This document shows positions 6,421 through 60,600 of a stretch of 64,000 nt of DNA, piece after piece. Source of the DNA: Coptis chinensis. Its lineage: Eukaryota; Streptophyta; Magnoliopsida; Ranunculales; Ranunculaceae. Position 1 is the stretch's first letter. Each line of letters begins with the position of its first letter. The DNA lies in assembly GCA_015680905.1 (NCBI GenBank), contig CM027379.1, forward strand, positions 101,421,001-101,485,000, read 5' to 3'. The position numbers were made by a program, and so were the translations under genes. The notes under the pieces are model-generated. The model was not told where the DNA came from. It did not search any database and saw only the letters and a list, made by a program, of their open reading frames with translations.

Positions 6421-8121
6421 AACAAATTCCCAACTTGCAAAATCCCGTAAAATAATCTCCTCACCCAATCATGTACAAACATCACAACACTTATCATCCC
6501 TAGTCCCCGACTCCTTTTTAGTACCCACCTCATTTCTCCTCTCCCAATTCTCAAATTAAGAAAAAAAAAAAAAAAAAATGATGCTACCAGAAATCCAAGT
6601 CCACCGTCCCTTCTTATCCACACCAACTTTCTTCCCAGACTCACAAAACCCATCCCCAAACTTCGATTATGTTATTTTTTTACAATTATAAGTTGTGATT
6701 CCGATAATATCGACAAGGCTTTTTTCTAATTCGTCCAGCGAATATATCGCTAAATGAGTAATAACTGAGAAACCGGTCAAAAAATTATGGCTCCAGCACC
6801 GATACACAATTAATCACTAATTAATCCCCGATTAATTACGATTTTAACTCCTTAGGGTAAGAGCACCTCCACCTAATCATTTTTTAAATTTATTGAGGTG
6901 CTCTTACCAATTCATTTTTAGTTTTTATTGTTTATTCATTTTGAAATTCGATAACTTATTGGAAGACTTTTTACGGATTTTTTTTATAAAATTGAAGATT
7001 TTTGTGACTATGGAATTGATTGAGTATTTGGAGATTTGGGCTGAAATCCTGGACGGGCTTTAAAACTTAAAAGAATGATCTGATCAAATAACTCCTACGA
7101 CTCGAGGACCAAAATCCTAAGACGCGGCGTACCAATATTTTCAGAAAAATGCACAACCACATTGAAGGCATGATGGTTGTGGCCTAGTGACTGTGACATG
7201 TACGTCAATACTGCAGGAGTGCAGGCGTACTGAACCTCTCACTTGGTTTTATTCATGCTTCAAAACTAAGGAAACCGCGAATGATAATCTGATTTTGACT
7301 ACTACGAAGAACCGAGGAAGGGCAAGTCTTTAAGTTGTACCCCAACTGGGCCTCACTCTCATCGTATTCATTTTAGAATAGGAGTATAGGACCATGCATA
7401 TACAACCACCGAGTTTTGACCCTATTAAACCTACCCGTTGATGATGATGTGAGCTCACAATACCATCAATATTCGTTCATATGATGGAGACTTTTCTAAT
7501 TTTCTTTGTTGGTGATTGGTACTACTAGAGTTTAATTTTGATCATTTTGCTAGAGAAATTCAGGTTAAAAGTGAGCTTTAATTGAGGGTCTTGGACTGCT
7601 GGTAGATTGTCCCACCACCAAATTCACCTTAGAGGATGATGCAAACTGAATTGCAGTACTAATCTCCAGAGATTGACTTGAAATTTGGGTATTTCAGGAG
7701 TTTGATCAACTGATATGAAGCCTGAAACTAATACTTCGCAATTATTGTTCATTACAGATTACTAGAGAAGAAAAACAAATTAAGGTGTTTGCTTTTGCTT
7801 TTCTAATTATCACTTATCAGTCAACAATTTTCCTGCCATACTCTTCAAATTGTGTGTCAAACATATGCACTGACTTCTACTTTGTGTTTTTGTAAATTTA
7901 GATAGACCCCAGTGGAAAGTTCATGGGACAATTTTTTACACGCGGTACAGATGGTTATTGCGATTTTACATAATATTTTTTTTTTTTTTTGGTTTAGAAG
8001 AGTTCGCAATGGGGAGGGCTGGGAGGCTCATGAACTAGGTCAATGGGCTCTAAAGTATGCTGCTATTAGTTTTCTTCCTCTTTGGAATGGTGTAAATTTT
8101 TTCAGCAAATTTTCTGTGAGT
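6421..8121. other. Intergenic, mostly unassigned
   Basis: No gene is recognised. It contains a poly-T/A run near 6560-6578, the short perfect hairpin at 6856-6908 and a poly-T run at about 7977-7990. Coding potential is weak on both strands. Confidence 0.4.
6856..6908. repeat. Perfect 14-bp inverted repeat
   Basis: GGTAAGAGCACCTC at 6856-6869 is matched exactly by GAGGTGCTCTTACC at 6895-6908, with a 25-nt AT-rich loop. The AGAGCA-type ends resemble those of short PIF/Harbinger MITEs in this window, but no clear target duplication is visible. It is probably an internally deleted MITE. Confidence 0.7.
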
Positions 8122-8722
8122 TGAACTTTTGAATTTCTATGATAAAAAACAAGGTGGTCTAACTTTTAAGACCAGTCAAATAATAACATACAATTTTTGT
8201 TATAAAAAACCATACTAACCAAGAGGTCGAGTTATATTATCGCAATACAGTGTTTTATTACTGTTTTTTCTCAAAAATATTTGTTTTCCAAAATTTAAAA
8301 CGGTGCATAATTTTCTCATTTATCTTCTCTATCTTTGTCACCATTAAACCTTGTGGTGGTAGCTTTTAATACCGGTGCACTTTTTCCCCAGATACACCAT
8401 TGGCATTTATTCTTTGACTGTAAACTTTCAAAACTCAGGGTCTATAGAAAAAAGGTCTTTAGCTGGTGAGGCATTGATTGAAACCTACACGTGGGATTTG
8501 GTATCTTAGTGAAAGGGATTAGCAGAAACTTGCAGCATGAGTGAGAACTTATCAACTGCACAAAATCAAAATATAAAAAATTGTGAATTTATGCTCCTTG
8601 AGTTGGTCTTACCAGGCTCTCTCTAGTTAGTTTGGTTTTCAATAATAAAAATTGTAGATTATCATTTGACTGGTCCTAAAAATTAAACCACTTGGTTTTT
8701 TGTCATAGAAATTTGAAAGTTC
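8122..8722. mobile_element. Foldback-type element with long terminal inverted repeats
   Basis: About 83 bp at the left (8122-8205, starting TGAACTTTTGAATTTCTATG) is matched in inverted orientation by the right end (about 8640-8722), at roughly 80% identity by eye. The central 430 bp has no reading frame. The long, imperfect arms suggest a Mutator-like or foldback MITE. I could not find a convincing target duplication, so the superfamily is open. Confidence 0.6.
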
Positions 8723-9254
8723 CACCCATAGATAATTTCCCGAAATTGTTTGGTTTCGGCTTAATACAGTAATAATAAGAGATTGTTACTTTCGTATTTC
8801 AATTTTCATAATGTTAAGGGTGTGGATGTCATTTGATAATGATTGATGATAGCCGTCGGATATAATTCACAAGACCATGACATTTGTCCTAGATGATTTG
8901 AATTCTAATGTTGTCTTTACCAAAATCACCGGATATTTATGTAATTATACCTATAAAATGACATTAAAGTATTTTCATTTGTCTTGACCAAAAACATCAC
9001 GGTCAAACTCAATTGACTTGAATGTGTTGTGGTCTTGGTTGAGGGAGAGGGGGGTAAAGCTAATTGGCTTAAATTCGGGAGGGGGGTAAACTTGTAGATA
9101 AAAGACTTGGGAGGGTAAAACTAATTGGCCTAAGTTACGGGGGTAAAGTTAGGCTAAGTCCAATGGTTTGGTGCAGCAAAACACCAAACTACAATAGCAC
9201 AGTGGATACAGTTAGTGGGATAGCGAAATCAAACCCAATGGTTTATTTTTTCAG

Positions 9255-9396
9255 CCGCCAGTGACAATCGCGTGCAGCCCAAAATATTAAATATCGTTAT
9301 TTGTTTCCAACAATAATATTGACTTTTGTTATCCGCCATCAGCAGTGGCGGGCAAGAAATAAAAAAACCAATTTTTTTATACGCCACTCCCACAGG
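9255..9396. repeat. Left subterminal CGCCA/TGGCG motifs
   Basis: Three copies of a motif with GCCGCCAGTG, CGCCATCAGCAGTGGCG or CGCCACTCCCACAGGCG character lie within 250 bp of the left end. At least two can fold into small hairpins. They are possible transposase-binding subterminal repeats, by analogy with other DNA transposons. Confidence 0.6.
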
Positions 9397-9640
9397 CGTG
9401 TAGTTATTTATCTCCCCATTTTACCCTTTCAAAAAAAAAACATCCAGAACACCAAAAAAAAATCACTCTCACTCTCACTGTTCAACACCACGAAACTCTG
9501 AAGCAAAATGTTGATACTTCCATGAAAGTTTTGCTGTATTGGTGGGTGACAACATCATAAAAACATAAGTTCATCGGTTCGAGGGGGTAATCTTTGCTAT
9601 GATTAAGGAAGAACACTAAACTCAATTTGAAGTTTATTTT

Positions 9641-10099
9641 TCAGGCTCTTCCATCCCACTCTTTGTAAAACTCTTCCAAGAACTCCTCCATAAACTTGTG
9701 CCTCTTCTCAGCTCTTCTTTGGTCAGCCTGAAATTGCCATAATACCAAAACAAGATATTAAGTAAAGGAAAATATGGTTTCTATTAGATCTTTTTGCTGT
9801 CTTACTACACTCTGTTAAAGAACTGTGTTATAGAGCAGATTTATAGAGGTGAACATGTTGCACTGTTTGCACATAACAATAAAGAAGTAGTCAGTCAGGA
9901 ATAGTGGGTTGTGCTTAAAGCTTCACCTTTGTCTTCATTAAATCCTTAAGCTTGAGAAGCTTTTCATGAAAATGATTCAGTGTGGTTTGCTCATCTTTCT
10001 TAATATATTCTTCCTTCGATATATCTAATCGGGGCTCTATCTTAGGGTCATGAAGTACTCTGTTCCTACTTCCACCAAAAGTAAAGAAACGGACAATTC
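9641..10099 (-). pseudogene. Captured C-terminal fragment of an HD phosphohydrolase gene
   Basis: Two minus-strand exons are preserved with their splice signals: 10099-9927, encoding FGGSRNRVLHDPKIEPR and TTLNHFHEKLLKLKDLMKTK, and 9727-9641, encoding RRAEKRHKFMEEFLEEFYKE and a TGA stop. The 199-bp intron has a GTGAAG donor and a TTTCAG acceptor, and the phase is kept. An upstream acceptor (GATTCAG) precedes the first exon, so part of another intron was also taken. The sequence matches the C-terminal helical part of the YedJ-like HD-domain phosphohydrolases (HFxxKLLKL... pattern); the metal-binding HD region is absent. It lies wholly inside the Harbinger-type element, so it is a transduplicated fragment and not a working enzyme. 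Confidence 0.75.
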
Positions 10100-10229
10100 C
10101 TGAATCAAGTATAGTAATATTGTGAATGAACAGAAATACAACTAAATCAAAAAAAATTAAAATGGTAGGATAGAATGGTAATTGCATAAATTAAGTTATT
10201 AAAAAAACAAAAAAATAGAGAATTAAATG

Positions 10230-10400
10230 CTAACCGCCAGTGGGAGTGGCGGGTGGAAATATTTATTGAATTCTAAACGCCAGTGGGAGTGGCGTGTAAA
10301 GTTATTTCAAAATGAAAATAAATTTCTAACCGCCACTGGCTATATGGCGTAGAGTTATTTGGATTTTTTTGGCTGGCCGCCACTGGCTATGGCGTACAGA
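10230..10400. repeat. Right subterminal CGCCA/TGGCG motifs
   Basis: Four copies of the same motif: CCGCCAGTGGGAGTGGCGG, CGCCAGTGGGAGTGGCG, CCGCCACTGGCTATATGGCG and CCGCCACTGGCTATGGCG. Each is an almost perfect short palindrome and they are spaced 40-60 bp apart. They mirror the left subterminal copies. Confidence 0.7.
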
Positions 10401-10541
10401 GCATACGCTATCGCATTAAAAGTGACTGCATAAATAGAGAAATTTATAAAGATAGCGTTGACGGTATAACGTTTTAATGTACCATTGGATCACATTTTAC
10501 GCGAAATTTGGTGTTTTGCCGCACCATTGGACTTAGCCTTA

Positions 10542-11637
10542 GAATACTGTTAAAAGGAAAAAGGGCAGTACAGTCTTTTTACATGCATTGACTAAAAATA
10601 TAACAATCAAGCATGATTGACTTGGATGTGGTGTGGTCTTGGGGGATAAACCCGGGGAGGATAAAGCTAGAAAAACTGTTCAAATTTTCACCGATGTGCA
10701 TTCTCCACGATTTTTTGTTTGGTAAAATTCTCCACCATCCAGTTGGTGATAATCTTTAGCTAATACTATTATGACATGTAATTATCGGAAAAAAAAGGTG
10801 ATTTAATTGGGCACTCATCAAATTGTATTGGGCAACCTCCAGCCCAAGTCCGACAACTAAGTCCAACAACAATAGCCCAATACACCTCACACGGCCACAC
10901 CCTCAATTCATAGCGACTACTATTTTTTTTCAAACATTTTTAGCCGGTATCATCTCTCTCGCGATACTGAACCAAAAAAACAAAAAAAACAAAACTTCGA
11001 GTTTTCTGTTGTGTTCATACTTCGAGTGTTAAGTTGTGAATCAACAATGGGAATTGAAGTTGGCGACTTCATCCAATTCGAGTCGGGTCTCGTTTGAGTA
11101 TATATTCAAACTTGGTTGGGTTGATTAAACTTGATTGGGGTGGAAAATTGGGTTGATTAAACTTGATGATTTCAAACTTGGTATTTTTTTGGAATTTGGG
11201 TGGAAGATTGGGTTGATTAAACTTGAGTTCGAGTTTGCCAAAGTTTGATGAAGTCGTTTCGAGTTTGGGTTGATTAAGTGAAAGTTGATTTTTAAAATGA
11301 ACATCGTGACAAATAAACATAATTTTTTAAGTCCAAACGACCCAGCCATGTCACCCAAAAAAGTCCCCAAACGACCCCGCCATGTTAATCTGGAGATTGC
11401 CCAAACGACCCCGCCATATTGTATAGCTAAAAACTCGAGAGCTCTGTCTCAAACGACATGCACATACCGCTTGAGTGTATACTCAAACGACATGATGAGA
11501 CCGTTTGAGTGTATACTCAAACGACCCGAGAATTTTGTTATGGCAAGACCGATTGGATTAGTTGTTGGGCCTGGACTTTGATAACAAACTTGTAATATGA
11601 CAAATTTGTAATATATATATATATATATATATATATA
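10542..11637. repeat. Intergenic region rich in short direct and inverted repeats
   Basis: Between the Harbinger-type element and the Helitron. The line 11101-11240 holds GGGTTGATTAAACTTGA three times, and 11333-11420 holds AAACGACCCNGCCAT three times. Three palindromes of the type GTTTGAGTGTATACTCAAAC occur at about 11093, 11470 and 11502. An (AT)n microsatellite (about 11610-11637) ends at the Helitron. No gene is seen. Confidence 0.6.
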
Positions 11638-11994
11638 CTAGCTTTCGAACCCGTCCTACGAACGGGTGTCGTTATATTAAATTATTTTAAAAAATATTAG
11701 CAACTATTCATAGCTATGAGATATGGAAATTATATTAATCAATTGTTTAAATTTCTTGCACCACTTTCTATCAAAAGAAAGCACCAAATCTTGGTAAAAC
11801 CCATCGATTTATTTTTGTTGTTATGTTTAATAATAAAAGTTTGATTAAAATTTTGTGAGAATGCTCAATGTGGCGAAGATGATATTGAAGCTACTTAAAT
11901 AGTAAGGCATTCCCAATTATAATAAAGTAATTATAATAAGCACTACTTAAAATGCAAAACTATACTTGTCGAGATATTATATTCTCCCTATATA

Positions 11995-13480
11995 TAATAC
12001 AACTATGTTTCAAGGTTAGTTTAATGCATTTGCATCAAGTTTCTAATTTTACGTTAATTATTCTTTGAGGCTAGTTCAATGTATGTAGTTGGATCTAGTT
12101 TCTGATTTTCCATTAATTATTCTTTGAGGTTAATTCAATGTAGTTGTATCAAGATTTTGATTTCCCGTTAATTATTATTTGAGGTTAGTTTAGTGCAGTT
12201 GCACCAAGTTTACGATTTCCCGTTAGTTATTCATTAAAGTTAATTCAGTGCAGTTCCATCTAGTTTTCAATATTTCGTTAATTACTCATTGAGATTAGTT
12301 AATTGCATTTGCATCAAGGTTCCAATTTTCCATTAATTACTCTTTGAGGTTAGTTTAATACATCTCCATCCAGTTTCTGATTTTCCGTTAATTATTTTTC
12401 GAAGTTAGTTCGCATCTAGCTTCCAATCAATTTCCGAATATTTATGCTTTGAGGGTAGTTCGATGTAGTTACATTCGGTTTCTAATTTCTAGTTAACTAT
12501 TCTTTAAGGTTATTTCAATGCATTTGCATCCAGTTTATGATTTTTCGTTAAATATTCATCAAGGATATTGCATCTAATTTATGATTTCCCGGTATGCTAG
12601 TTAATATATGATTTTAGTTTAATGCAGTTACATCCAGTTTTCGATTTTTCGTTAATTATTCTTTGAGGTTAGTTCAATGCAGTTGCATCCAATTTATGAT
12701 TTTCCATTAATTATTTTTTTAGGTTAGTTTAATGCATTTGCAGCAAGTTTTCGATTTACCGTTAATTATTTTTTGAAGTTTGTTCAATGCAGTTGCATCT
12801 AATTTATGATTTTCCGTTAATTATTCACTGAGGTTAGTTCAGTGCATTTGCATCCATTTTTTTATATTTCTATATTCGTTAATTAGTCTTTAGATTAGTT
12901 CATTACATTTGCATCAAATTTTCGATTTTTCATTAATAACTCTTTGAGGTTAATTCAATACATCTGCATCTAGTTTATGATTTATGATTATTTATGCTTT
13001 AAGGTTTTAATTAGTTCGATGCAATTTCATTCGGTTTCTTATTTCCCATTAACTATTCTTTGAGGTTATTTTAATGCATTTGCATGTAGTTTCTGATTTC
13101 CCGTCAATTATTCTATGAGGTTATTCAATGTAGTTGCATTTGGTTTTTGATTTCCTGTTAATTATATTTTGAGGTTAGTTTAATGCATTTGCATCCAGTT
13201 TCTGATTCATCGTTAATTATTATTTGAGATTTGTTTGATGCATTTTTGCATACCATTAAATATTTTTCAAGGATTTGCATCCAATTTCTAATTTCCCATT
13301 AGTTATTCTCTGACGTTAGTTTAATACAGTTGCATCTAGTTTCCGATTTATAGTTAATTACTTTTTGAGTTTAGTTTATTGCATTTGCATAAAGTTTTCG
13401 ATTTTCCGTTAATTACTCTTTGAGCTCAGTTCAATGTATTTGAATCCAGTTTTCGATTTCTTTTTAATTATCCAATGTGG
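11995..13480. repeat. About 56-bp tandem array, block 1
   Basis: Diverged tandem copies of a unit that contains TTAATTATTCTTTGAGG, TTAGTTCAATGCA, TTTGCATCCAGTTTC and TGATTTCCCG. I estimate about 25 copies. Nearly every unit carries the octamer-like ATTTGCAT, often as TGCATTTGCAT. Units follow one another without spacers. Confidence 0.85.
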
Positions 13481-22880: not shown

Positions 22881-23819
22881 AAAGTCCCAAGATTGATGCA
22901 ACCTGTAGTTGGTGTAAATTTTGGTGGTGGTAATTCTTGTTCAAGTTACAAATTAGTTGCGCTTAGTGATTCTGATTTGGATTTTGTTCCCGCAAATTTT
23001 TCCTCAAAAGTTAGTTTCTTGTGTATTTTGTGGAGCGCATGCTTCCTTGTAACTTAATTTAGGCATGCTATCCAATGCCCTTTCAATCTTCATCTCATTT
23101 ACAGAATCTGTCGTCCCTTTGAAACAAACAGGTTTTCTGTTCTCTTAGGTTGAGTTGGTTTGTGTTGTAATGTTCATTTACTGACAAACGTATTCGTTTC
23201 CTTTTTTGGGTTGAGTTGGTTTGCTTGTTGTAATTGTTGTTCTGCATTGTACTTGAACCTGGATGCAGTTGAATCTCTAGTAAAATAGATGGATATAGTT
23301 GAATGAATTTCTTTCACTTTTTGGTCGGTACTTGTTTCTTGATAATAACATTGATAATAAAGTAACACGCCATTTATGCTTCCCCTGCCCCTTATAGATG
23401 ATCGCGTCTTTACTTAGGGGTTTGCTATTCTCTGCATTGTTTACTGCTTTTACCAACAAGAGTCGCTCAATATCTAAGCAGCTTTTGCACAATCACTGAT
23501 GACCTTCTGGTCGAAAATATTGTGGTGAGAGGATGAGAGTTCCATACTAAAAACACTTAAACAAATGAGTTGCCATGATTTGCATTCCCGATCGGTTTTC
23601 AGAAGCAAAAGAAGGATGAAAGTTGAGTATCTTCTTCTCAGTTCTCATCACACTGGGTGGGCCGTGGGCATTCTCAATTGCAGCCCAGTAAGCCCAATAG
23701 AATCAAACAAAGGAAGCTCCCCAATTGGTCCACCATCATCACTTTAAAAAAAAAAAACTCGTTTCTCTTTAAAAGAAAAGTTTCAATTCTCATAAAATCC
23801 GAAATCAATAATAAAAAAA
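22881..23819. other. SurE 3' flank and YIP-gene 5' flank
   Basis: 3' UTR and intergenic DNA after the SurE stop, then the leader of the YIP1-family gene. The 23730-23819 part is A-rich just before the ATG. No further gene is seen. Confidence 0.5.
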
Positions 23820-24563
23820 ATGTCAAAAAAAGAATTCAACGTACCGCCGGTGATTTTCCCATCGGGAGGAAACCCAAACATAAACATACCCAGCCAGCGT
23901 CGTCAGCCAATCAGACCACCTTTCAACCCAAACCAGAATCTCCCATTCATGTCATTCGACATGGGATCTTCAACAATCCCATCCACGTCATTCTCAACAC
24001 CTCTTTTCAACACTCAATCCTCACCCGGTATTGGTAATTTCGAAGAAGAATTACCTTTACTAGAAGAACTTGGTATTAACACACGTCAAATCTGGAAAAA
24101 AACTGTATCTATTTTAAACCCATTTAAAATCAGTCCTAATCTACATGAAGATGCTGATTTGTCAGGTCCTTTTATTTTTTTAATGACATTTGGTTTGTTT
24201 CAATTGTTAGCTGGGAAACTACACTTTGGGATTATATTAGGTTGGGTTACGGTCGCCTCCTTGTTTCTATATGTTGTTTTTAATATGTTAGCTGGAAGGA
24301 ATGGGAATTTGGATGTGTATCGTTGTTTGAGTTTGATTGGTTATTGTATGTTACCTATGGTCATCTTTTCGGCTTTGTCCTTGTTTTTACCACAAGGGGG
24401 TGTGGTGGTTTTTGGATTGGCTGCGCTTTTTGTGATTTGGTCGACCAGGGTTTGTACTAGGCTTTTGGTGGAGTTGGCTTCTTGTGGCGATGAACATCGA
24501 GGTTTGATTGCTTATGCCTGTTGTTTGATTTACATGTTGTTTTCGTTGTTGGTTATATTTTGA
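23820..24563 (+). CDS. YIP1-family membrane protein (YIPF5/YIP5-like)
   Basis: A single exon of 247 residues starting at the ATG at 23820. YIP1-family proteins are multi-pass membrane proteins of the ER-Golgi that interact with Rab GTPases in vesicle traffic. The N-terminal 75 residues are hydrophilic and Pro/Asn/Ser-rich. They are followed by the conserved ELPLLEELGINTRQIWKKT and LNPFK blocks. DADLSGPFIFLMTFGLFQLL opens the first membrane segment, and about five hydrophobic segments fill residues 125-247. LAGRNGNLDVYRCLSLIGYC is the typical central loop plus helix of the family. The protein ends in a membrane segment. A full-length intronless gene is normal for plant members. The family is certain; the numbered paralogue is not. 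Confidence 0.92.
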   Translation: MSKKEFNVPPVIFPSGGNPNINIPSQRRQPIRPPFNPNQNLPFMSFDMGSSTIPSTSFSTPLFNTQSSPGIGNFEEELPLLEELGINTRQIWKKTVSILNPFKISPNLHEDADLSGPFIFLMTFGLFQLLAGKLHFGIILGWVTVASLFLYVVFNMLAGRNGNLDVYRCLSLIGYCMLPMVIFSALSLFLPQGGVVVFGLAALFVIWSTRVCTRLLVELASCGDEHRGLIAYACCLIYMLFSLLVIF

Positions 24564-39390: not shown

Positions 39391-40200
39391 TCATTCCTCT
39401 TGGGCGGGAAAATGGATCACCGATGCTGGAAGGAAATCGCCTTTTGCATTGATGGATTCATCGCCGTCCCCTAAAATAGCGTTGTAGGGCGACTTGGTAT
39501 CGAGGACGCTAAAGCGCGTGTTGAAGTTTCGACCTTGTCTTCGGGGAGCCCATCGAGATCGGGAGTATGATGTCTCCCATTGGGTCGGCCCTGGAACCAT
39601 TGAATCCAAAGAGAGGCGCGATCGGGTCTATGAAGACCGATTTTGGGAGGTTCATCTCTTGGATGGTATGGTAGAATAAAATATCGCACGAGCTGCCAGG
39701 ATCTATCAAAACTTGCTTGACGGTCCAGTCGCTGATTTTGACGTGGACCACGAGTGCGTCGTTGTGCGGGAGGCAAACCTTGTTGAGGTCGGCCTCCGAG
39801 AAGGTGATATCTCTTGACCTGTGTCCTGAACTGCGTGGTGCGGGTGCGGCTTGCGAAGAAATGTTGTAAACTTCATGAAGGGCGCCAACGCGCCTTCTCT
39901 TTTCTCTAGATGTGGAAACAGAATCATCTTGAAGTGTGATCATGTGAATGGTTCTGTCGTATTCCCGACCTGTTGACGGTTGGCGACGATCTTGACGAGA
40001 GCGGTCTCGGGGACGTCCTCTGCTGTGAGAGCGACCTTGGGACCTCTGATCGTTACGTCGAGGTGGGGATCTACTTCGTACTCTGCGGGTTATGAGCTTG
40101 TGGTGCAGGTTGTCGTCGGGTATGTTGGTGTATTGCTTGATGTGTCCGGCTTCTATGAGATCCTGCAAGTAATGCTTGAGCCCCCAGCATACATCGGTCT
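39391..40200 (-). pseudogene. Aspartic protease region
   Basis: The active-site block reads VLIDPGSSCDILFYHTI (Asp-Pro-Gly in place of Asp-Thr-Gly, which I recall in other plant gypsy elements). The C-terminal block SPYNAILGDG is in another frame, so the protease is broken at about 39510-39600. An Arg/Ser-rich linker precedes the domain. Confidence 0.8.
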
Positions 40201-41262
40201 CATGGCACCTAGCTCGGTGGAAGGGCAGTAGGGTTGGTCGGGGCGATCTGCCGGTTGTCTGATCTCAGGTCGGTAGTAGGCAGCTCGTTTGATCTTCTCT
40301 AGTATGTAACTAGGAGATCTGGTGAGTACGGCGAATTCTCGGTCATTGCTCGCTTTGAGTTTGGAGGGCTGCCCTTGTTGTCGGGGTCGTTTCTTAGAGG
40401 ATGATGATACATCGTAAACTTCTCCTTCTTCTACTTCTTCTTCATCTTGGTTCTGATTTTTCAAACCTTCTTGTAACTTGATGTACCTGTCAACTCGAGC
40501 GCATTCCGCCAACGTTCGGGCGGTTCTTCTTTCGGGAGCGATCCGGTGGAGTGCCGTGGTCATGCGGCGGGCGTTTGTGAAATCCACCGCGGCGAATGAC
40601 TCTTTGAGGCCACTCTCCATGTCTAATAGTTCGATTTTGAACCGACTTAAGAAGGAGCGGAAGGTTTTCTCCTTGCCGAGTACAAGCTGAAAGAGTGAAT
40701 TGAGATCGCCCTTCTTGCGTCTGTTATGGACGTATTGGCTTGCGAACAGGTCGGTGAGCTGCTCGAAGTTTTTTATCGAGTCGGCCTCGAGGGAGAAGAA
40801 CCAGTCGAGTGGGCCATCTTTTAGACTAGCGGGAAATAGTCTGCAATGAAGGTGGTCGAACTCTGGTGCACTGTAGAGTGTTAGACTTTGAACATACCGA
40901 GCTATATGCTGGCCTGGGCATGTACGAACATCGTACATTGGGAACCGTGGTTGGACGAAATCTTGAGGAGAAATCTTGCAGAGTAGCTCAGCAGCAAATG
41001 GAGATGCGCGGTAGGTTTTTAGCATCTTTTGCACTATCTGGGTGGAGTTTTTCTTTACCGCATTTTTGTCGAGCCTTTGGCTTAGCTCGTTGATCTGTTG
41101 ACTGACGTTGATGACGTTGTCTTCTGCGGTGGCACCTAGTGGGTTATGTGTATCCACTTGTGCACGTAGTGTGACGTTTTCCTGCCTGAGCTGAGCTATT
41201 TGCTCGTTTACCGTCCCTAGTTGTCCTGCTAACATGTGGAGTTGAGCTTCGAGGCTTGCCAT
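40153..41262 (-). CDS. Gag-like protein of the Tat element
   Basis: An open frame of 369 codons from the ATG at 41262. Residues 1-75 are a coiled coil (QLGTVNEQIAQLRQENVTLR). The retrotransposon gag capsid domain follows, with FASQYVHNRRKKGDL and FRSFLSRFKIELLDME. An acidic stretch and a basic tail come next. A zinc-knuckle-like segment continues in another frame after about 40200, so gag is cut off from protease by a one-base shift. It acts as a nucleocapsid shell in family members. It is the only long open frame left in this copy. Confidence 0.85.
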   Translation of the reverse strand: MASLEAQLHMLAGQLGTVNEQIAQLRQENVTLRAQVDTHNPLGATAEDNVINVSQQINELSQRLDKNAVKKNSTQIVQKMLKTYRASPFAAELLCKISPQDFVQPRFPMYDVRTCPGQHIARYVQSLTLYSAPEFDHLHCRLFPASLKDGPLDWFFSLEADSIKNFEQLTDLFASQYVHNRRKKGDLNSLFQLVLGKEKTFRSFLSRFKIELLDMESGLKESFAAVDFTNARRMTTALHRIAPERRTARTLAECARVDRYIKLQEGLKNQNQDEEEVEEGEVYDVSSSSKKRPRQQGQPSKLKASNDREFAVLTRSPSYILEKIKRAAYYRPEIRQPADRPDQPYCPSTELGAMRPMYAGGSSITCRIS

Positions 41263-41330
41263 GCTTCGTGGGCTTGAGAGTTTTGGTTACTGATTTGTTT
41301 GGAAGTGGTTTGGTTTCTCAAGTAATCGAG

Positions 41331-54796: not shown

Positions 54797-57645
54797 TTAA
54801 TTCCCAGTTCTTGCAACTCGCATGCATGTTGACGATGATGAAGCTGGTGACATAGCAGCAGACCTATCAATGTCCTCCTTGTCCTCACTAAATGCTTGTG
54901 CAAAGCTTTCCTGTAGTTCCATGTACCTCTGTTTCTTCGTCAGACGCTCGTCAGCGTTGTCATTGTCAAGATTAGCAAGCTCTGACAGGTCATCTGCATC
55001 CATAATCTTGTCGAGTACCTCTGAGCAACGAGGGAAAAACCTTTTTCCAAGCTCAACTATCAGTCAACACAAAACATAGACAATTAGCTCCATTCAGAGC
55101 GACCTGATTATGTGCTATAAAGCCTATAATTAACCATGATGTCATGATGCAGAGCGGGAAAAAAGAACAGCAAAAGTAGTGCAGATTAACAAACATAGTT
55201 ACCAGTTCTGGAAAGTGCCCTCATTCTATTTAGATATTCCTCTTCATTCTTGAAAGGTGACTCATTTAATTCTACCGATGTGTTCTGCCGACTAGGAGAA
55301 TTCTTTGGATTGACAACTACGGGAAACTCAAGAGTGCCATCCACTTGTGCAATGTCCATAGCAACTTTTGCTTCCATTGGGAATAAAAGCCTTGCTATGG
55401 TAACTGAACACAAAATTACATCAGACAATGTAAATTTTTAGTCACAGATGATGCCGCAGGTTATAACAAAATAAGAATTTTAGTCACAGTTTGATGCTAG
55501 ATTATCAAGGACAGACCATTTTTGAAATCAAACTGATCATCTTTTTCTTCCAATATCTTCCTTGCAACCATTACAAAGAGATCGTACAACTACAAGAAAC
55601 AGAGTATGACCAAAACAAAACACAAAATATTTGCACATAATGGGTTGGTGACGATACATCTCCAAATCCCCAACTTACTCTTTGGCTTAAAACAATACTT
55701 CTGGTTATTCATCATATCCTGAAGACACTGGAAAATTTCTATTCAAAATTAGCATGGTACAGACCTCCAAAAGTAGTTCTCCCTTACAAGAATGGATGAA
55801 TTGGCGCTTCAATAGGGACTGACATACAACGAAGTTTTTACTCAAAAAGAAATATTTCTCAAACCAGGTAGATGATAATCTTGCTATGTATAATGTTTTT
55901 TTGATTGTTCAGTATCAAGGTAAATAGGAACTTTTCGCAGTTAGCCATGGATGTTTTTGACACAAGACAATGATTGCTGTTCAATTGCATATCTATAGAG
56001 CTTGAATGCTGTGATGTGCCGGAAATAAGATCATTCAGGATTTCTATCATCAAATTATATAGGGATATATGCGTTGGACACTCACCTCTATTTTCAAGGT
56101 ACAACAAACTCATACGCAGATCATCACCAGCCATTGCACGAGAAGTTGATGCTTCCCCCAATAGTAAGTCTCTCCCTTCTGCTTGTTCCAATATTTCTAT
56201 GCATAACCTATCCTTTGGAGTTGCCTCTCCTTCTTCAGTAGACCTAAAATAATCCACAAATCTGGTGAGCCTCTTTGAGATTTGAAGTGCTGTTCTTCCA
56301 TCTGATGTTAAAGCAGATGGTTGAGCCCCTTTTGTAAGAAGAGATACTATAATCTTGGGTTCTTTCCTCATTGCAGCAACATGCAGTACGGCATAACCCC
56401 TTGCATTCCTAAGATTAACATCAGCAAGCCCAAACTCAAGAAGCTTGGTGGTAGTTTTTACATCACAATATGCTATAGCGTAGTGCAGAGCATATGCATC
56501 GTCAAGAGTAGAACGACCTTCTTTCAGTAACAACCCTACTAATTCAACATCATCCGATTCCAGAGCCCTATGTAATCTCCTCACATGTTTATCTGGAAAA
56601 ACGTTGCTTCCAGGCACAGAGAACTCCACTTCCGAACGCAAATCCATAATCGGTTTCACAATGTCAGGGGACAATGCCTTCTCAAGCGTTGTGGTATCCA
56701 TATCAGATTTGACAGTGATATCAATGCATTTTGCGAACAACCTCTCACAAGCTTTGTCACACATTAAGGCAGCAACAGATAGTACTGCTAGTATATCATC
56801 TGCTGGCACCTGGTCAAGAATTCCCAGAAGGCGTCCCTGCACAGTGGACGATAACAAGTATTGTTTAGTGGTTTTAAAGCTGAAACCAAGTTCAAAATGA
56901 GAACCTAAACTTCTAGGCTAGAAATGACAATATAGTAGTGAGTTTGGAATATGCAATTGGTAGGTTGTTTTGGCTAAATGAAGCATGCCTAAAAGTAGAA
57001 CCTAGTGCAAAATACCCTATACAATCTTTAGCAAAATTTAATTGTGAAGGCTACAATAAATTTGATAGTACGAACATACTAAAACCTAGTGCAGAACAAG
57101 TACATGGTAACACTACTAACCTCATATAGTGCAACAAGTTCTGGAATTTGGAAGATGAAAGAAGCATACAACACCTCCAACATAGAATCAACAGCAGGTC
57201 TACACCCAATATGTGAGCACTCATCATCAACACAAACACAAACAGTGTAAGGCAAAGGTTTAACTTTTCCACCATACAAATAACCCAAAATCCCAACTAA
57301 TGAATCGTACCCAACTTTATAGTCTTTCACCAAATCCTTCAATTGAAAGACCACCTCATCTCTTGCTTCAGAAAACAAGCTCTTAAAAAATAGACTTCTA
57401 GCTGAAAGAATGCAACGGTGAATAGGTAGCTGTTGGGACTCGTTCACTATGATTTTGGCATCACTGTAGAAAGTGAAGTCATCTTCAGATTGGAAAATGG
57501 TTTCCAAGTTTTGTGAAAGACGGTTTAGAGATGTTAGCTGGCTGAGTTCTGGTTGTTGAAGGTGTTCTGGAGACGTGAGAGTTTCTGTGTTGCAAACACA
57601 ACATGTGCTGCTGAGTGCACTGTTGATGTCACTAGAATTATTCAT
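54797..57645 (-). CDS. NPR1-like BTB/ankyrin salicylate-signalling protein
   Basis: Four exons, 57645-57121, 56836-56086, 55403-55203 and 55056-54797, all GT-AG and in phase, give 578 residues, the usual NPR family length and exon structure. The BTB/POZ domain spans about residues 50-170 (FYSDAKIIVNESQQLPIHRC). A C2HC zinc site CVDDECSHIGC lies at 138-148, followed by AVDSMLEVLYASFIFQIPEL. Ankyrin repeats follow (AYALHYAIAYCDV, NARGYAVLHVAAMRKEPKI, DGRTALQISKRLT). The salicylate-binding-core motif LENRV spans the exon 2/3 junction, then LFPMEAKVAMDIA, VELNESP, VELGKRFFPRCSEVLDKIMD and a C-terminal helix. Family members are nuclear/cytoplasmic co-regulators that bind TGA bZIP factors. The clade (NPR1 or NPR3/4) is not settled by eye. 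Confidence 0.93.
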
Positions 57646-60600
57646 AAAACTAGGAAAGAGAAGAGAGACAAGAAGGGAGTTTGGCTATTAGATTGAGATT
57701 CTATTTCTATTTGTAGAAGAAGATAACACTTGAGTTTAGTTTTATCTTCAAGCAAGAACTGGGTAGGCAAAAAGCAGCCAATGTGAAGGTAATGGTTTGG
57801 GAAAAGACAAAATCACTTTGATTTAAGAAAGTGACAAAAGAGGACCTGATCCAATGTTGTTGATTGTCAATTTAACTATTTTAAGAAGTGAAATAAATAT
57901 GGCTTTTAAACCAAAAGAGGCAAAAAAAAAGGTAGGATTGTATGGAACATTCATATGCTTTGTTTGAGGATTGCTAGGGTCCTGCCCCTCTATGAAAGGG
58001 ACCATCGTTACCACTTGTTCACCTATTCTTAAAATTGAAGTGTTTAACATCGTTTGTTGAGAAAAAAGTAATGGGTTGACTCACGTCCCAACCAGCACCC
58101 ACCACTAGCCATGGCTCCGGCTGCTGCTGCTGCTGGAATCCGTTCAAACAAGTCATTATTTTTTATATCAAAAAACACAAGATTCCACACATCCAATATT
58201 TTTTATTTGATATTACAATATTTATAATTTTTGCATCAAACTAAGATTTCAAGTTTAAGATGTAAATCATCTAGAAAAATAGCCAATAATTGACCCAAAA
58301 AATTTATTGCTCCCCATTACTGAGTTTACAGCCAATTGAACTACAATAATTGATAGTTGGTGGTGTGTAGATCGAGGGAGAAAAATGAGAAACATCAACA
58401 AATAATAAAAACAAAAGACAAGAAAGACATTTAGTAACGATGTTGTGGACGATACTAGCTGGTAGTGCTACTGGACGGTGGCCGTTGGGTGGTGCAGGCT
58501 GTTTAGAGAAAAGATGTGACTCAATTTTGAGTTTAACTTGGTCACTATTTTTTGTCTTTTGTTTATTGGGGTATGATGAAAGGGCAGGATACTAGCAATT
58601 TATAGTATAGTAAAAACAAAAATACAGCAAGTAAATAAACTATAACAGGTGAGTGTAATTGATCGTGCTAAAATATAAGTTTTTTTGTGCTGCCGAGAGT
58701 GCCAGCAATCAGCTCACCGAAACTTAGAAAAGGCTGACTAAAGTACGAGACCATGTGACTAGAATGAACCGAATCTAGTGATATTTTTGGTGCAAATTGT
58801 CGTTTTGTTTGGGAAGGTGCTTATTCGACAAAAACAAAATTGTCTTTTTGTTGGCAGGCAAGAGGCCAGTATGCTCACAGGCACGACATCTGTTCAAGAA
58901 AAATCAACAAAACATTAAAATATCGAAACAGTCTCTCTCTCTCCCAGATCTCGCCATCCGAATTTCCTATTAGATTTGGAAACCAAATAAATCTACTCAA
59001 AAGTTAAAATTGAAATGAGTCCCTGTTTTAATTCACAAACGATCGTTGTCTGAAATTGGGAGTCCATGGTTGCATAATTATAGTTCAACCAATTGTTTCG
59101 TAATGCTATTTGTAATTAGATATTTATTTTTGTGCTCAAATGTTTTTTCCTGTTGTGCTAAGCCGCCACCAATCACCCAATTATTAGACCATGTGGTTTC
59201 CAGTATATGCAAAAATAATATCATTACATCTTTTAGTACTGCATTTATAGGTGATATGATAGAAGTTATGTGCTACGTATGTTGCTTCAATTGTTTTCCT
59301 GAATACTTGAATGACTTTTGTAATTTTGTTCCATATCCACATATAATTCCAAATGCAAGTCAGCACAAAGTTTGAGCACAAGGGTGTTGACAGTGGATCT
59401 CTAAGTGAGGAGTCGAGTGAGGAATTGTTTCTCAGTTATCTTCTGACCAATGAAAATGATTGCTCTTGTAAATCTGGTCAGAATCATTAGGTAAAGAGGA
59501 AGAGAGAGAAAGGAGAGGGAACGTGGGTAAAACTGTAAAGACAGGAGAGCAGAGAGAGAGAGACTGTTTTGGTATTTTATTGTTTTGTTGATTTTTTTTG
59601 GACAGGTGTCATACCTGTGAGCAACTGTGGAGCTCAGAGATGGAGCAAAATATTTCTCGAAAAACACCTATTAAGTTTGATATATATATATAGCACCTAT
59701 TAGGGCCACTTGTTTGCCAAATTTTACTATATTAAAAAAATATAGAGTACAAGGAATAGTGATTTGGTGTCACGTGTCTGTCACAGGAGCATTTTCGTCA
59801 TTTCTGTCACTTAACAAAACTTTTCAACAACTCTTTCTCTCTCTAATTCGGACATAATCAAGCATCAAACCAATTGGAAACCCAAACGTGTTCTCAGCAA
59901 GCTTTTCAAGGGATATCCAGTTCTATCATTGTTTTCGAAGGTAAGTTTGGTTTTTATAATTTGGGCATTGCGTCGTAAGCTTAAATTTGAAGATAAGTTG
60001 AGATTTTAATTTGTTTTTGATGAATTTTATTGAAATTTATGTTGTTCTGTTATATAACGTTGTTAAGTATTTGATTTATTGCATTTTCAGTATAGGTTTG
60101 TTGTAATATTTGTGTAAATTATATTTCTGGTTTGATTCAGGTGGTGAGTTTCCTGTAGAATGGTTGAAGAATGGGATAATAAGAAATTAGTCAACAGATA
60201 TTTCTCTGTATTTTCTTCTTCGTCCTCTTGCGTTAATTGATGTTCTATCATTTTGTGATTCATTACAGTTAGTACGGTCTATGGTCAGTTCTCACCACTT
60301 TGCTTTGTATTAGTGATCAGTAGTGAGCAAGTTGCTTTGTACTTTGACAATCTACATTAAGGTACTTTGTAGTTTATATAAGTACTTTTTTTTAGGCTTT
60401 GAGCTAAAATCAATGTCAAATATACTACGCAATTAGATTATCTTTGGTTTGCAACTTTTAGTAAATGGAAAGAATTTAAGAACGTAGATTACTCATAAGA
60501 AACATATGGTGTAATTAACCAACTCGGCAATTCCGACGACCTGCGTTGGATGAAGTACTTTATGCAACTCAGTGTCATTGCAACTAAAGTATGCATGCCA

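Follow-up and report, generated by a model that had tools for sequence, protein, structure and literature searches.

A non-autonomous PIF/Harbinger-type element of Coptis chinensis enclosing an unspliced fragment of a host HD-domain gene

Transposons that enclose pieces of host genes raise the question of how the foreign sequence came to lie between the transposon ends, and whether it serves any purpose there. One such case is a 1387-bp element at positions 9152-10538 of the window, the whole 64,000-nucleotide stretch of Coptis chinensis DNA analysed here (C3:101421001-101485000 of a 936-Mb assembly of 116 contigs, which was used for all genome searches). The original prediction, made from the letters of the window, described a non-autonomous PIF/Harbinger-type transposon that had taken up part of a host gene at the DNA level. 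The comparison with the genome supports this interpretation as essentially right in nearly every point, with the borders of the fragment corrected and the statement about its rarity softened. The element is best understood as a Pack-PIF, in which the interior of a PIF/Harbinger transposon was replaced by a genomic piece of the HD gene, probably through incomplete repair fill, the exons most likely being carried as passengers; a probability of roughly 0.87 is assigned to this reading. The features are collected in Table 1.

Table 1. Coordinates of the element, of the captured fragment and of the related B3-domain sequences (window positions unless a locus or contig is named).
Feature	Position	Strand	Remark
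Left target-site duplication, TTA	9149..9151		
Left arm of Harbinger element, 340 bp	9152..9491	+	starts with 16-bp terminal inverted repeat
Captured host HD-domain gene fragment, 648 bp	9492..10139	-	gene sense on minus; 94% to L012:4758-5392 = C1:3057757-3058391
Gene sequence 3' of stop codon (3' UTR region)	9492..9640	-	alignment and gene model
Exon 7, 87 nt, TGA stop	9641..9727	-	gene model
Intron 6, kept	9728..9926	-	GT-AG ends intact
Exon 6, 173 nt	9927..10099	-	gene model
Intron 5, 3' part with acceptor site	10100..10139	-	
AAATA at joint, 5 nt	10135..10139		found in both the host gene and the right arm (as in L031)
Right arm, 399 bp	10140..10538	+	closes with inverted copy of 16-bp terminal repeat
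Right target-site duplication, TTA	10539..10541		
B3 parent gene	L042 = C6:24821936-24825375		three GT-AG introns
Intronless B3 copies	L013:555-1301 (C9); L043:417-1208; L044:7012-6234; L045:4288-5124		

The element starts with GGCTAAGTCCAATGGT and ends with the exact inverted copy of this sequence. Its inverted arms agree at 100% over 17 nt and at 95% over 20 nt, and the perfect 16-bp terminal repeat, with TTA on both sides, corresponds to the exact inverted ends and duplication that had been claimed. Both arms are related to the ends of much longer elements: over positions 1-328, the left arm shares 94.9% identity with the left end of the long relative L029, and the right arm is 92-94% identical to the right ends of the long relatives L031, L032 and L033. 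The arms contain six GCCACT/AGTGGC motifs, against about 0.3 expected per element from base composition, and these may represent candidate transposase binding sites. Left arm, captured piece and right arm (340 bp, 648 bp and 399 bp) fill all 1387 bp and thus leave no space for a transposase; together with arms common to a Plant_tran-bearing relative, this agrees with the predicted non-autonomous PIF/Harbinger nature of the element. A search of positions 8000-12000 returned no Rfam match. Outside the TTA duplication, the element is bracketed by a pair of direct repeats of 84 bp with 75% similarity (8955-9038 and 10559-10642). Elsewhere in the window, an ORF with a Yip1 domain lies at 23796-24563 (+), a retrotransposon gag ORF at 40153-41286 (-), inside a G+C-rich stretch at 30-42 kb, and two adjacent ORFs at 55859-57684 (-) match BTB, and ankyrin repeats with NPR1_like_C, which marks an NPR1-like defence regulator gene.

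The sequence between the arms comes from a host gene on C1. Element positions 341-987 match the parental segment at 94% through exons and introns (E 7.9e-285), and the same breakpoints recur in three copies, which confirms the captured fragment as real and far beyond chance. The parent gene, on the minus strand near C1:3057757, has seven exons, introns that are all GT-AG, and a product of 225 aa (L012:7166-4904) with a Pfam HD domain (PF01966, residues 30-135, 5.7e-10), in agreement with the proposed host HD gene as source. Only exons 6 and 7 were captured, that is, the coding part after the HD domain, and the catalytic HD region is absent; the piece also includes 149 bp of parent sequence downstream of the stop. 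The two exons, the intervening intron, the part of the preceding intron, the splice sites and the stop codon that had been predicted were all found. The predicted span of 9641-10180 is corrected to 9492-10139, as positions 10140-10180 belong to the transposon arm and the gene sequence at 9492-9640 had been overlooked. The word "spliced" in the title of that prediction does not apply, since the fragment is unspliced. Its introns are retained and can be aligned with those of the parent, which upholds capture at the DNA level and rejects a retrocopy origin of the HD piece. A gene running beyond the element ends is likewise rejected: the fragment stays inside the ends, the parent lies elsewhere and the arms are transposon sequence. 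Between the window copy and the parent, 30 of 634 aligned sites differ, with 7/260 in the exons, 5/190 in intron 6 and 0/39 in the part of intron 5, so that the intron homology proposed as a check is present; the part downstream of the stop shows 18 differences in 145 sites, many of them clustered in a single short patch of altered sequence.

Used as a query against the genome, the parental piece hit four loci, the parent and three transposons, with 4 of 4 candidates scored. The element as query gave at least 57 matches from 40 scored of 764 candidate places, so the copy number of the family is a lower bound. Among these, whole-element matches are the window copy on C3 (1387 bp), C2:80841121-80842501 (94%) and C1:25490755-25492101 (90%); apart from these three and the parent, the matches cover parts of one or both arms. 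Short elements free of the insert also occur (L023-L025, 670-675 bp), and the suggested search for copies with and without the insert thus recovered both kinds. Each of the three HD-carrying copies has its own TTA on both sides and different flanks, showing that the element was mobile after capture, and the breakpoints are identical in all three. This points to a single DNA-level capture followed by transposition, and independent captures are rejected. The C2 copy differs from the parent at 19/635 sites (exons 8/260, intron 6 5/190) and the C1 copy at 21/621 (exons 2/246, intron 6 12/190). Differences between copies over the captured sites range from 4.3 to 5.7% in a roughly star-like pattern. 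All three copies depart from the parent at one codon, with ATA for CTA (I for L). This change may predate the spread of the copies or belong to the later history of the parent, and so only supports what the breakpoints show. With typical plant substitution rates, the capture may date to about one to a few million years ago, a rough age because the parent is under constraint.

The family to which the element belongs includes long relatives of 8.9-10.0 kb that have both arms in common with it. Both ends were found for members on C7 (9348 bp), C9 (9504 bp), C1 (9012 bp) and C8 (C8:80548854-80558852, 9999 bp), and a member at C3:95584552-95593411 (8860 bp, the L018/L054 element) combines both arms and flanking TTA with a Plant_tran domain. 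A 3-bp target duplication, TTA or TAA and equal on both sides, is present in 16/16 elements with both ends found, a count of 15 separate insertions (L013 and L030 being one) that covers two-ended loci. ORFs of L031, L032 and L033 resemble PIF transposase. Among these transposase-like ORFs, Pfam was applied to those of L032 (PF04827 Plant_tran, 2.7e-90; PF13359, 1.7e-13), a PIF-type DDE transposase, and L054 (PF04827, 2.6e-46). In a search for a SANT/Myb second ORF, another ORF of L031 matched only PF14303 (NAM-associated), at 27.9 bits with a cut-off of 27.7, and Pfam returned nothing for two further candidates in L031 and L033. In L033, L043 and L054 the transposase reading frame is broken. 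By its target duplication, the common arms and repeats and the transposase of its relative, the window element belongs to the PIF/Harbinger superfamily. L013 and L030 (C9:73679072 and C9:70966923) represent one insertion duplicated with its flanks, one copy being about 2.9 kb longer inside. Sequence of the plant mobile domain (PMD, PF10536) lies between the left end and the transposase in long relatives (L029:2570-3124, L054:4495-5364 and L032:5775-6260, the L032 piece being below the Pfam cut-off) and is presumably Ty3/gypsy-derived (PMC8616336). At L047:9452-9515, the right-terminal 64 bp of a further long element occur in tandem twice, giving two right ends.

The element has the features of a Pack-PIF: it is non-autonomous, encloses a host gene fragment whose parent lies elsewhere, and has moved since capture. 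How the fragment entered can be approached through its two joints. At the left joint (9491/9492), the window tracks L029 up to GTTCAACACCAC and then the parent from GAAACTCTG, with 0 nt in common. At the right joint, the parent sequence GAACAGAAATA runs into the arm AAATACAACTAAATC, and AAATA is common with L031; the common run with L032 is 8 nt, of which 5 nt is the safer figure because the next base of the window is that of L031, not of L032. Random joints between the same two regions share at least 5 nt in 0.9% of 200,000 draws, and a run of this kind at one of two joints has a chance of about 2%. In the preferred reading, incomplete repair would have followed the breakage or excision of a 9-10 kb relative. 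Some 340 bp in from one end, synthesis would have switched from the element to the HD gene, used about 648 bp of it as template and returned to the element via the short common A-rich sequence, some 400 bp before the other end. The product, having kept both arms, would then have been moved in trans by the transposase of the family to at least three sites. The element is probably an internal-deletion derivative in which host DNA serves as filler, as expected of interrupted gap repair with template switching. The left joint shows no common nucleotide, and template switching is thus supported at one of two joints only.

The best-surviving alternative is a fusion of neighbours, in which two family members flanked the HD gene piece, lost their inner ends and were mobilized whole by their outer ends. 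This model is favoured for Pack-TYPE elements, including Pack-PIFs (PMC8903248), and it would fit a gene piece flanked exactly by arms with 0 nt common at the left joint. The one parent locus found shows no trace of the family beside it in this assembly: within the 9.9 kb fetched (4.5 kb on each side), no family terminal repeat was found with up to 3 errors, the same scan places the parent copy outside any TIR element, and no arm match is convincing, the best being A-rich with E 0.001. Neighbour fusion is accordingly considered unlikely. Still less probable is an ordinary nested insertion or segmental duplication of the HD piece into a pre-existing short element, unconnected with repair. The insert-free L023-L025 show that such elements exist, and their right arms start at nearly the same point. 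More generally, on the coordinates of L015 the right arm starts within 1073-1109 (37 nt) in seven other short elements (L013, L021, L023-L027) and at 1082-1084 in the three HD copies, a series that gives no tally of independent breaks because short elements may descend from each other. Left arms vary more, with alignments that end between 99 and 340. Against a nested insertion, no duplication is seen by eye at either joint, and the left arm of the HD copies reaches 340, matching L029, whereas L023-L025 align only to 309-311.

Whichever way it was acquired, the captured sequence is most likely a passenger, which is the default view. The window and C2 copies keep an intact frame, splice sites and stop codon; in the C1 copy, a 14-bp deletion in exon 7 breaks the frame. 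Values of pN/pS are 0.024/0.042 (7 changes) for the window copy, 0.024/0.063 (8) for C2 and 0.005/0.022 (2) for C1; amino-acid-changing differences make up 5/7, 5/8 and 1/2, respectively, at a rate below the silent rate in all three. These values may indicate the direction of constraint, in numbers too small to test and with a possible contribution from change in the parent. That the exons form a functional mini-gene, or have been selected to regulate the parent by way of antisense or small RNA, is highly improbable: it would agree with the intact copies, with pN below pS, with the contrast between exons (2/246) and intron 6 (12/190) in C1 and with the small-RNA crosstalk that has been associated with gene fragments inside maize transposons (Muyle 2021, cited in PMC8616336), but the changes are few, the C1 frame is lost and the HD domain lies outside the captured piece.

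A second host gene is represented in the same family. In L013 (C9, 1442 bp, TAA), 754 bp match the B3-domain gene L042 exon by exon at 98-100%, and the reading frame matches PF02362 B3 (8.2e-16). The 24-mers that span exact removals of the L042 introns are present for 3/3 introns in L013 and L043, for 2/3 in L045 and for 1/3 in L044; L044 and L045 show small changes near the unmatched intron junctions. Since all three introns are missing at exact borders in L013 and L043, the B3 copy is RNA-derived. L043 is part of a 10.0-kb element on C8, with which L044 and L045, where only the left end was found, align over 4.5-5 kb. Partial B3 matches occur in L046 and L047 (77-78%) and in L049 (96%), and no match to the B3 insert was found in L029, L032 or the L018/L054 element. 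No poly-A is visible at the insert. By eye, a short imperfect repeat (AACATGTTTT-like) lies at both sides of the insert in L043 and L045, and its 3' end there lies in similar host sequence. The insert may have arisen as an ordinary retrocopy inserted into a long element, or by RNA-templated fill. The piece in L013 extends about 21-35 nt deeper into the host gene than that in L043, for which a single insertion is no simple explanation. It is conceivable, though rather doubtful, that this Harbinger family fills broken copies from any template, both genomic DNA (the HD gene) and RNA or cDNA (the B3 gene); if true, a single transposon family would preserve a record of how its breaks were repaired from DNA as well as RNA templates. 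The literature searched offered no example of a PIF/Harbinger element with an intronless gene copy, which does not prove absence. A human MER20 transposon with the retrogene ARF6 inside has been described (PMC8277862), and the same survey of animal Pack-TIRs discarded intronless copies, so that its filter may have hidden cases of this kind.

Gene capture by Harbinger elements, which the original prediction called rarer, is less rare than suggested, as Pack-PIFs have been catalogued in maize (Gisby and Catoni 2022, PMC8903248). The maize elements resemble the present one in their PIF-type terminal repeats, mostly TTA/TAA duplications and non-autonomous nature, and also in an internal fragment near-identical to a host gene, several copies and fragment-free sister elements. 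Zm-Pack-PIF cluster 18 has captures of 163 and 58 bp in 72 copies (PMC8903248), compared with 648 bp in three copies here. Unlike the maize cases as presented in that source, the Coptis element holds two exons with the whole intervening intron, and its parent locus is without sign of neighbour fusion. Animal Pack-TIRs (Tan et al. 2021, PMC8277862) are alike in having filler in a TIR transposon, a genomic donor and multiple copies by later transposition. They are attributed to gap filling or template switching, with a short common sequence at the joint (median 2 bp, against 5 nt at one joint here); the present case is a plant PIF/Harbinger element, and neither Harbinger nor PIF is named in the main text of that paper. 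In the MtPH elements of Medicago (PMC2213677), short members are also internal-deletion derivatives of long ones, for which abortive gap repair was invoked; host gene filler was not found in that account, which has 0 occurrences of "captur-" words and of "host gene". For the pick-up of host genes by DNA transposons, neighbour fusion (PMC8903248) competes as a model with repair involving template switching (PMC8277862). Here, a single assembly contains the donor gene, the long relatives, the two joints and three daughter copies, which allows a base-by-base comparison of the models, and the intronless sister case in the same family lets one ask whether RNA can serve as filler. Gene capture of the Pack-PIF type is already known; what is new is a well-resolved case in which donor, relatives and joints can be read directly.
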